Below, piece after piece: positions 1,961 to 6,689 of a stretch of 6,689 bases of DNA. The notes beneath the pieces are model-generated. The model was not told the origin of the DNA and made no database searches. It saw only the letters and a program-made list of their open reading frames with translations. Origin of the DNA: Candidatus Desantisbacteria bacterium CG1_02_38_46 (GTDB taxonomy: Bacteria; Desantisbacteria; UBA1551; UBA1559); the NCBI GenBank assembly GCA_001871015.1, contig MNUO01000036.1, positions 1 to 6,689 on the forward strand. The letters run 5' to 3'. A program made the position numbers and the translations under genes. Each line of letters opens with the position of its first letter. Position 1 is the stretch's first letter.

Positions 1961-3259
1961 TTAAGCCTCCCCTGAGGAAAGTTTTAAAAATGGAAATTTA
2001 AAAATTTTATCCATTGCCAATACTGCTGCTCCCAGCGCTCCTGCATTATCATTGAGATTTGAAATCTTGATTTCTACTGGTTTCAGCAATTCGGGATAAG
2101 CATATTCTTTGATTGTCTCTTTCATTGGTTCTAACAGTAAATCTCCGATTTTTATTAATCCTCCGCCGAGAATAATTTTTTCAGGATTCAGCAAATTTAT
2201 TAAATTTGAAACAGCAATTCCTAAATACTTTCCGGCATTATTTATAATTTTTATAGCAAGCCTGTCTCCAGATTTTGCAAGTTCCGCCACTTCTTTACAG
2301 GTTTCAACTTCTATGTTCTTACTTTTGCTTCTATACTCTTTCGGAATTGATTCTCCTGACAATATTGATTCCAGACAACCCTTTCTTCCGCATATACACA
2401 ATTTCCCTCCGGGTTTTACTATTGTATGTCCTATTTGACCTGCACTATCAGTTGCACCCGTCTGGAGAACTCCTCGATTAAAAAAAACACATCCAATTCC
2501 TATTCCTAAATCTAAAAAAACAAAATCATCATCTTCTCTGGCTAAGCCAAATAATTTTTCAGCAATTGCTCCTATTCTTGAACAATCATCTATAAAAACT
2601 GGTAAGCCAAATTTATCCTTAAGAATTTTTACTACAGAAACATTTTTCCATTGGGGTAAGTAGACTGCGTAAAGAGAAATTTCTTTTTTCCTGTCAATAA
2701 GACCGGGAACACCTATGCCTATTCCGAGAATATTCTTATTTTGACCCACTCCCGACGTTTTGTTCCGAAAAACAAGGTTCTCGAAGAGGTTCTTATTTTG
2801 ACCCACTCCCGACGTTTTGTTCCGAAAAACAAGGTTCTCGAAGAGGTTCTTATTTTGTGCACTTTCAATTAAAGTTTTTATTGTGCTTATAATTTTATTT
2901 ATTATGGAATTACTTGCTTCATTTTTTTCAATTTTAATATCCTGCGAATAAAGAATATTTCCCCAGGCGTTTGTAAGCACTCCGCTAACATGCGTTACTC
3001 CAAAGTCAATGCCGATATAAAGATTATCAGGATTTAACTGAATTTTCTTTGCTCTCCTTCCTCCTGAAGAAGGATAAAAGCCTGCAACTATTACCAATTT
3101 TCTTTTTAAGAGCGAGAACAAAACGTTCCTGATAGTTTTAGTGTCCAGATTTATTTTGTGCGCAAGTTCCTCCTGAGAGAAAAATTGTTTTATCCGCAGG
3201 GCATTCAGAAGCTTCAGTTCATTCTCTTTTTTCATTATAAAATGGCTTCTGCTTCTCAT
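1961..3259 (-). CDS. ROK-family (NagC/XylR-type) transcriptional regulator with an in-frame 57-base repeat insertion
   Basis: A 432-residue protein from the ATG at 3259. An upstream in-frame GTG at 3271 would add four residues, but the ATG has GGAG at six bases and forms the ATGA overlap seen at other junctions here. About residues 26-56 form a winged helix-turn-helix (SQEELAHKINLDTKTIRNVL), followed by the GGRR linker typical of ROK regulators. The ROK domain starts near GIDFG at about 83-87. GIGIGVPG lies near 179-186, and a zinc site follows with GH plus CxCxxxxC (Cys288, Cys290, Cys295). ROK regulators bind DNA and release it, or tighten, on binding a sugar or sugar phosphate. The END-type catalytic motif reads IDDC, placing Cys at the kinase Asp, and the GExGH motif reads GQIGH. 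This supports a regulator without sugar-kinase activity. Residues of about 139-176 are a two-copy 19-residue repeat; without it the protein would be about 394 residues, a normal NagC-type length. It probably regulates this operon, autogenously. Confidence 0.9.
   Translation of the reverse strand: MRSRSHFIMKKENELKLLNALRIKQFFSQEELAHKINLDTKTIRNVLFSLLKRKLVIVAGFYPSSGGRRAKKIQLNPDNLYIGIDFGVTHVSGVLTNAWGNILYSQDIKIEKNEASNSIINKIISTIKTLIESAQNKNLFENLVFRNKTSGVGQNKNLFENLVFRNKTSGVGQNKNILGIGIGVPGLIDRKKEISLYAVYLPQWKNVSVVKILKDKFGLPVFIDDCSRIGAIAEKLFGLAREDDDFVFLDLGIGIGCVFFNRGVLQTGATDSAGQIGHTIVKPGGKLCICGRKGCLESILSGESIPKEYRSKSKNIEVETCKEVAELAKSGDRLAIKIINNAGKYLGIAVSNLINLLNPEKIILGGGLIKIGDLLLEPMKETIKEYAYPELLKPVEIKISNLNDNAGALGAAVLAMDKIFKFPFLKLSSGEA
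1966..1972 (-). promoter_or_regulatory. Strong ribosome binding site of transketolase N subunit
   Basis: GGGGAGG on the minus strand lies five bases before the ATG at 1960 and within the last codons of the ROK gene. It is the strongest ribosome binding site in the gene string. It may raise translation of the transketolase pair above that of the regulator upstream. Confidence 0.7.
2733..2857. repeat. Tandem 57-base repeat, two full copies plus 11 bases, inside the ROK gene
   Basis: Copy 1 covers 2733-2789 and copy 2 covers 2790-2846; the two are identical. The first 11 bases of the unit (TTCTTATTTTG) recur at 2847-2857 and then the similarity stops. On the minus strand each unit encodes 19 residues (LFENLVFRNKTSGVGQNKN), and since 57 is a multiple of three the frame is kept. 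Removing both units leaves the plausible ROK sequence ESAQNKN-ILGIGIGVPG, so the array looks like an insertion in a loop between a helix and a core strand. By my count the unit is 25/57 G+C, with several CG dinucleotides, against a more AT-rich gene. It also has short hairpin potential (CTC-TTC-GAG, and GTTTT/AAAAC around a seven-base loop) and is open in four of six frames. Confidence 0.93.
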
Positions 3260-4095
3260 TTTATTCTCCACATAATTTCTTTTGCCAAGATAGTTTTATA
3301 TTGAGAAATAAATTCTAATAATCTTTCTGCAGTTTTAAATTTATCAGCTGTATACATACATATAGGATGCATCAAAATTGTTGCAAGTCCCTCTTTTTCC
3401 TCAATTTCCACAACCTGTTTTTGAACCATTTCTCCCCATATTTCAATACTATGGGAATCCGAACCAAAATCATCTCTGCCATATCCAGCAATTTTTGCTT
3501 TCCTTACAAATTCTCCATCACGGTGAGCGTGATAAAGATGGTCGTGGTCTGGAATAGTATTTATCGGATGAGAAATTAATCCCTCTTTTATTTTTTCTGG
3601 AAAAATTTTTTTAGAACTTATTTCGTCTGAAATCATCTTTATTCCCATCTGGGCAAGAATGGAATATGTATTTTCATCATGAATATACCCGTGACTCCTC
3701 CAGGAAATAATTTTCCAAGCAGTTTTTTTCTCTGCCAATTCTATCATTCTTTTTATATCTCTTTTTTGCTGAAAGTAAGAACCGTATGTAGGACTGTGCG
3801 AAGGTGGACAGCGCCCAATTATTTTATGCAAGATTTTAGAAAAATTTCCCAGTGGTAAACCACCATAGGTATGCCCGCCAATCTCTACCAAATTGGAATC
3901 AGTAATTAGTTTAAGATTCTCCCATTCTTCATCAAAAGTTTTTCCGGTTACGTAAAATGTGACCTTCAGACCATATTTTTCAATAATTTTCAGGAATCGG
4001 CAGGCTATTTTAACTTCTGAATCCCCTGATTCTACAAATCTTTGTTCATTCGTCTCTAATGAAGTGTGATGGATATCGCCGGTTAAACATATCAT
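3256..4095 (-). CDS. Divergent polysaccharide deacetylase-like (NodB-type, carbohydrate esterase 4-like) protein
   Basis: A 279-residue protein with no signal peptide or membrane segment, so probably cytoplasmic. The order of motifs follows the NodB fold. LTGDIHH (residues 4-10) stands for the TFDDG-type motif 1 after the first strand, and LKVTFYVTG (43-51) is the typical second strand. IGGHTYGG (72-79) stands for the HxxxH metal motif, SWRSHGY (131-137) for the RxPxG motif 3, and ILMHP (240-244) for the terminal His motif. The second His of motif 2 is Gly79, and motif 1 has His9-His10 in place of the usual second Asp, so the metal ligands have changed. A His-rich run around 183-191 (DHDHLYHAH) is extra. 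Known family members remove acetyl or formyl groups from amino sugars; the altered ligands leave substrate and even activity open. The ATG overlaps the sulfatase stop as ATGA, with AAGGA eight bases upstream. Confidence 0.8.
   Translation of the reverse strand: MICLTGDIHHTSLETNEQRFVESGDSEVKIACRFLKIIEKYGLKVTFYVTGKTFDEEWENLKLITDSNLVEIGGHTYGGLPLGNFSKILHKIIGRCPPSHSPTYGSYFQQKRDIKRMIELAEKKTAWKIISWRSHGYIHDENTYSILAQMGIKMISDEISSKKIFPEKIKEGLISHPINTIPDHDHLYHAHRDGEFVRKAKIAGYGRDDFGSDSHSIEIWGEMVQKQVVEIEEKEGLATILMHPICMYTADKFKTAERLLEFISQYKTILAKEIMWRIK
3266..3269 (-). promoter_or_regulatory. Ribosome binding site deciding the ROK start
   Basis: GGAG on the minus strand lies six bases before the ATG at 3259. 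Choosing this start gives the ATGA overlap with the deacetylase stop. The alternative GTG at 3271 overlaps this site itself and has no comparable ribosome binding site. Confidence 0.6.
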
Positions 4096-6388: not shown

Positions 6389-6689
6389 ATGGGAAAAGAT
6401 GCAGAGTTATCCTTGCCTGGATTACCACAAAGAAAGAAAATAGAAGTAATAGAATCTGAGGGTAAAAAGAAAGTGTTATTAAGAGAACAACCATTTATGA
6501 CTTGGGCAAGTGAAGATGAGAGTGCTTCACGTATGGCTATTGTTCAACTATATGAATTAGGATTTGCTACACAGGAAGAATTATCTGATGCCTTTCAAGT
6601 GCATATTAAATCCATCTACAATTATATTAATGCCTACAAGGCTGATGGAGTTCGCGGATTAATAGATCAACCAAGGGGGCCAAAACAAG
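6389..6689 (+). CDS. Helix-turn-helix protein, probable transposase N-terminal part
   Basis: One hundred codons are visible and the gene continues past the window edge. Residues 1-37 are a charged leader (GLPQRKKIEVIESEGKKK and on). Residues of about 46-91 look like a helix-turn-helix: SRMAIVQLYELGFATQEELS, then a recognition-helix-like VHIKSIYNYINAYKADGVRG. They are followed by LIDQPRGPK, a basic Gly/Pro-rich turn that typically follows the N-terminal HTH of many transposases. The DDE catalytic region, if present, is outside the window, so the IS family cannot be named. The ATG at 6389 has a GGGGG tract (6375-6379) nine bases upstream, and the gene has its own consensus promoter. It is divergent from the operon and separated by 135 bases. 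A non-transposase DNA-binding protein is the main alternative. Confidence 0.6.
   Translation, partial: MGKDAELSLPGLPQRKKIEVIESEGKKKVLLREQPFMTWASEDESASRMAIVQLYELGFATQEELSDAFQVHIKSIYNYINAYKADGVRGLIDQPRGPKQ

Follow-up and report, generated by a model that had tools for sequence, protein, structure and literature searches.

An in-frame tandem repeat in a ROK regulator gene of Candidatus Desantisbacteria as a probable expansion of a dispersed palindromic element

Introduction

The gene for a ROK-family regulator on contig MNUO01000036.1 contains two identical 57-bp units in tandem, raising the question of how a coding sequence came to accommodate them. An earlier note on the 6,689-nt stretch of DNA analysed here (the window) had proposed a dispersed, protein-compatible mobile repeat comparable to the Rickettsia palindromic elements (RPEs), a group of short palindromic repeats that are scattered through the genome, lie in intergenic DNA and also interrupt unrelated proteins in frame (PMC10969869). 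Our analysis indicates that the ROK array probably arose when one copy of a short palindromic mobile element, ~50-90 bp long, non-autonomous and dispersed, became two at this locus.

The tandem repeat in the ROK gene

A single array with a period of 57, 2.2 copies and 100% match was found by TRF at positions 2733-2857 of the window, within the ROK open reading frame (Table 1). A 24-base piece of the unit gave two matches in the 6,689-nt window against zero expected, which excludes chance for the array. The unit encodes NKNLFENLVFRNKTSGVGQ, and these 19 residues are present twice in the ROK protein; the two-unit, in-frame repeat that the earlier note had described is therefore exact, and the tandem unit is, as stated there, open in four of the six frames. 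The insert proper comprises 114 bp, or 38 codons, with AGTGCACAAAA ahead of it and TAAGAATATTCTC behind it in the ROK gene. TRF counts 11 extra bases because the host flanks resemble the ends of the element. These bases had been taken for either a target-site duplication or the footprint of unit-wise slippage. The reading as a target-site duplication did not hold, the flank matches being a resemblance between the target and the element junction. In a comparison with glucokinase 2qm1, a relative lacking the insert, residues 82-136 of the ROK protein aligned weakly with residues 5-59 and residues 178-420 aligned strongly with residues 65-320; the alignment blocks therefore leave ~36 extra residues at the repeat.

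Table 1. Features of the ROK gene and its insert (positions in the window)
Feature	Position	Strand	Basis or remark
Host gene, ROK-family regulator (436 aa)	1961..3271	-	ORF; Pfam ROK E 2.1e-59, residues 177-421; PDB matches
Insert proper: two identical 57-bp copies, tandem, in frame	2739..2852	-	TRF; model matches 2735-2795 and 2796-2852
Element copy 1 (TAAGAACC ... GTCAAAA)	2796..2852	-	
Element copy 2 (TAAGAACC ... GTCAAAA)	2739..2795	-	
Variable hairpin 1, copy 1 (TCTTCGA, within CTCTTCGAG)	2838..2844	-	Identical in copy 2, 2781-2787
Core stem left arm, copy 1 (CTTGTTTT)	2826..2833	-	Pairs with 2792-2799; covariation
Core stem right arm, copy 1 (AAAATAAG)	2792..2799	-	Covariation
Host flank CAAAA before insert	2853..2857	-	Resembles element right end; counted within array by TRF
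Host flank TAAGAA after insert (T, then purine-rich target)	2733..2738	-	Resembles element left end

Elsewhere in the window, a transketolase is split into two genes for its N- and C-terminal parts (231-1960), and this pair neighbours the ROK gene and genes for a polysaccharide deacetylase, a sulfatase and a class IV aminotransferase. A helix-turn-helix ORF (HTH_28) at 6389-6689 is cut by the contig end and is perhaps the start of a transposase gene.

Dispersal of the element

The unit proved to be dispersed in the source genome, as the earlier note had anticipated, with 47 BLAST matches to the 57-bp sequence. A covariance model built from 30 element copies gave 61 matches in this 1.73-Mb genome and 20 in the other Candidatus Desantisbacteria genome examined (the sister genome), and a gapped pattern of the core had 37 exact matches compared with none for a reversed-pattern control. 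Tens of copies lie inside and outside genes, several genomes have unrelated proteins that carry the insert in frame, and comparable tandem arrays occur at other loci of the source genome and in a second genome.

Among GTDB species genomes, matches to a strict core pattern were confined to Candidatus Desantisbacteria CG1_02_49_89, which is the sister genome. When 386 sampled genomes were searched with the covariance model, the sole further lineage with many copies was a family of another phylum-level lineage (f95). Exact copies were present in five of the six genomes of this phylum examined, at up to 22 per genome, and the sixth (G232) has a copy that fits the pattern with one change. The f95 copies are divergent, yet they share the frame and the targets of the Desantisbacteria element. 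Single weak model matches in G065, G132, G192, G242 and G311 are about as many as chance alone would give among 386 genomes at an E of 0.01, and a pattern match in G006 also looks like chance. The plasmids, phages and viral contigs that were searched gave no element match, and no Rfam 15 covariance model matched across the element, the hits being limited to tRNAs, CRISPR repeats and weak matches.

Anatomy and folding

The element begins with TAAGAACC, followed by hairpin 1, AGAACCTTGTT, a structured core or second hairpin, and AAT. At dozens of sites, the constant frame of TAAGAACC, AGAACCTTGTT and AATA encloses swappable hairpins. In 37 distinct Desantisbacteria elements, hairpin 1, bounded by the constant AAGAACC and GAACCTTGTT, takes 26 different forms. 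The Desantisbacteria core that follows AGAACCTTGTT reads NYTCG-N7-NGTCG-N7-GTCNN before AAT, and its place in f95 is mostly taken by a second simple hairpin. The stem CTTGTTXY/Y'X'AATAAG covaries, with X/X' being UA in 16 cases, GC in 11, AU in two and another combination in one.

Mismatches in the stems are also patterned. On the gene-sense strand, T.C/C.T mismatches outnumber G.A by 19 to 4 in hairpin 1 of Desantisbacteria and by 45 to 6 in hairpin 2 of f95, which on the opposite strand are recurrent tandem G.A pairs. Tandem G.A pairs stack well. One further pair, C.A on the sense strand and G.T on the opposite strand, occurs in ~10 of 30 sequences. Because the tandem G.A and G.T pairs sit there, the base-pairing patterns suggest that the strand opposite the gene sense is somewhat more likely than not to be the structured one. 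Folding energies did not confirm this and were unremarkable for single copies; the top strand was slightly better than the bottom strand, and single-copy folds were no better than shuffles in six of the seven stretches tested.

Several variants of the layout occur. In a short subtype, hairpin 1 is merely AAGC-AAA-GCTT (TAAGCAAAGCTTGTT...; loci L153 (G000:C75:11370-11517), L155 and L156), and at L079 (G000:C89), L080 (G000:C1) and L009 (G000:C86) the core is interrupted by more hairpins or by another dispersed repeat (CCTCTTACAgAGCATACTCCTGTCGAA). A subgroup in G001 (L161-L163, L165) has the right flank TATG, mostly ATATGCTCAG, as if it were part of a larger composite repeat, and two of its members (L162, L163) lie beside apparent tRNA genes. 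At L038 (G001:C38) a four-unit element array adjoins a CRISPR array near a contig end.

In-frame copies in proteins

The ROK regulator is one of several proteins with in-frame copies. CarB of the sister genome has ~20 extra residues relative to E. coli CarB, and RsmG of two f95 species of one genus carries a copy at the same position, seen as extra residues relative to PDB relatives. In-frame copies were also found in IspE and in a protein resembling MEMO/AMMECR1, and a MurD-like protein contains at its start three 16-residue units of the short subtype in tandem and in frame (the latter two names were read from sequence). Some copies within proteins run with the gene and others against it.

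Target sites and stop codons

The element lies, without a long target duplication, at sites that read A-rich-T|RR, the left flanks being A-rich. The preference T[AG][AG] holds at 31 of 33 sites, and the right junction reads TAA, TAG or TGA at 30 of the 33, TAT at two and TGG at one. Only the T, or TA in most cases, is shared by both sides of the element. Most copies in the source genome lie between the genes of operons. At 11 of 32 independent loci, about a third in Desantisbacteria, an upstream ORF on the same strand ends at the element's own first TAA; these copies lie in sense orientation, and the old TAA, TAG or TGA has been pushed to the element's far end. As the TAA of the element replaces the old stop codon, the upstream protein stays the same. 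The ORFs that end in this way include L18, L5, SecE, DnaK, GlyQ and ArgC, and the genes that follow include S5, NusG, GroES, GlyS and TrpE (names read from sequence). Translational bypass or read-through is not supported, as only five of the 11 stop loci have the displaced stop and the new TAA in the same frame.

The L18-S5 junction is available in both states. Without the element, the sister genome reads GLQF-TGA with the same protein end, while the source genome reads GLEF-TAAGAACC...CAAAA-TGA, with the TGA at the far end of the element. For this one site, comparison of the empty and filled junctions therefore shows directly that the element was inserted at a stop codon. At the stop of a GAF-ANTAR gene, an element is present in both Desantisbacteria genomes, which represent two families (L045 1476-1608 and L166 near 1039; 186 of 229 aligned residues identical). 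The hairpins and cores of the pair differ; the site may have been hit twice independently, or else an early insertion has retained its form. Since the RsmG insert is common to two species and this stop-codon site to two families, some copies may be old.

This siting could mean that the mobiliser recognises termination sites or their motif, as opposed to selection leaving only the copies found there. The background for stop sites is 7.7% of non-coding stop trinucleotides, well below the 11 of 32 loci observed; weighting by the target motif raises it to 13.5% (P ~3e-4), although that motif was learned from the same sites. Intergenic loci away from stops are likewise biased toward sense orientation (~15 versus 2, P 0.002), and occupation of the same GAF-ANTAR stop in two families points the same way. 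However, selection in tight operons could yield the same pattern, and f95 has one of 20 loci at a stop with mixed orientation, which favours selection plus target preference. We consider active stop-codon targeting unlikely.

Comparison with known repeat families

The behaviour of the element is much like that of the RPEs, bearing out the analogy drawn in the earlier note, in that copies occupy intergenic positions and also occur in frame in genes for unrelated proteins. It differs in its unrelated sequence frame, its length of 50-90 bp compared with ~150 bp, its two-hairpin frame, its stop-codon sites and its presence in other phyla. The CGTC-type RPE-4 and RPE-6 have no known transposase (PMC3733652); their CGTC tag, the feature compared here, is absent from the ends of the element. 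CGTC REPs, some of which lie within genes, are hairpin repeats that lack a transposase of their own and are defined by a CGTC end, an 8-9 bp stem, a 4-5 b loop and a CCA tail (PMC3733652). In our element, CGTC occurs only inside the Desantisbacteria core of some copies and is missing from the f95 hairpin-2 copies. In GTAG REPs, a TAG of the repeat often serves neighbouring ORFs as their stop codon, and intragenic copies and clusters occur (PMC3733652). The constant parts TAAGAACC, AGAACCTTGTT and AATA hold no terminal GTAG tag beside a hairpin, and no RAYT, the repeat-flanked Y1 transposase gene of that system, is flanked by the element.

Correia, ERIC, BOX and other MITEs are also non-autonomous short elements near gene ends, but our element has no clear target duplication, and its two ends, TAAGAACC and CAAAA(T), do not form inverted repeats. 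Compared with the integron attC boxes GTTRRRY / RYYYAAC, the constant GTT is followed by NYTC and not RRRY, and no cassettes lie between the units. The TAACTGA direct repeats of Beggiatoaceae are intergenic and tandem, can overlap an upstream stop and lie mostly in one orientation (PMC4679880); they differ in being 7-bp units of another sequence without a hairpin frame. No description of the element was found in the literature searched, which covers part of the field. The element is apparently undescribed; although it behaves as an RPE does, the features compared place it in a separate family.

Candidate mobilisers and other origins

Hairpins, tandem arrays, the lack of target duplication and strand-specific structure would all be expected of a REP/BIME- or IS200/IS605-type element, moved by a tyrosine transposase of the Y1 (HUH) type that works on hairpins in single-stranded DNA, and Y1 genes are present in both Desantisbacteria genomes. 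However, no Y1 gene is flanked by the element: 12 of the 13 Y1 loci have no adjacent copy, and the copy near the thirteenth (L167/L169) lies outside the hairpin ends of the IS200 itself (CCCCGCGG). The element-bearing f95-lineage genomes G094, G362 and G232 (82-93% complete) gave no Y1 match, and the GTAG tag is lacking. Mobilisation by a Y1 enzyme is accordingly doubtful. Two RAYT-like Y1 genes (L087, L088), one with an internal stop, have their own short flanking repeats (GTCCCCTTTTTT; AGGGTCAGACCTC / GAGGTCTGACCCT).

A cis-acting operon regulatory RNA that acts as a signal for processing, stability or coupling, and whose copies arose by duplication and were maintained by selection, would fit the covarying stem and, in Desantisbacteria, the sense bias and the siting between co-transcribed core genes. 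Copies within proteins on either strand, tandem G.A mismatches on the strand opposite the mRNA, a second lineage without the bias and the lack of an Rfam match argue against it, making this origin quite improbable. Ordinary local tandem duplication of ROK sequence, or an assembly artefact of copy number, would be expected to give the 100% identity of the two copies, but is extremely unlikely, as diverged forms of the 57-bp unit occupy dozens of further sites and recur in other genomes.

Discussion

The reading of the ROK array as an expanded copy of a mobile element draws on the dispersal, the in-frame inserts and one empty orthologous site. These observations uphold most of the proposal of the earlier note, with movement itself being what we infer from them rather than an observed event. 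Its mobile-repeat idea was largely right and its duplication idea was wrong; to these the present analysis adds the second lineage and the siting at stop codons.

Such an element might move as a structured single strand or as a small circle. Inside arrays, the sequence formed where two ends meet (CAAAATAAGAACC) is similar to the target (AAAATAAGAA), and a circle or joined-end single strand could integrate into target-like sites. Because of this similarity, a further element integrating next to a resident copy would give rise to a tandem array without a long duplication; the same step would account for the target preference. The step from one to two copies in the ROK gene may instead be local slippage. 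Insertions that shift the frame or introduce stops would be purged, and the survivors would be found at gene ends, in operon gaps and as stop-free multiples of three such as the ROK copy. Essential operon genes would tolerate insertion at the stop codon because the element supplies a replacement TAA. More tentatively, the element could represent a novel class of non-autonomous elements in which a structured single strand with tandem-G.A hairpins is moved by a non-Y1 enzyme, prefers stop codons and supplies the replacement TAA, a possibility to which we assign low probability.

The usual REP transposase is missing from three element-bearing genomes. In-frame insertion of the RPE type, best known from Rickettsia, is found here in uncultured lineages of two phyla, with a sequence frame different from that of the RPEs and with hosts that include the core proteins CarB, RsmG and MurD. 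The stop codon itself constitutes a second near-neutral niche for a repeat family, and the family provides dozens of natural experiments on the peptide inserts that proteins tolerate.
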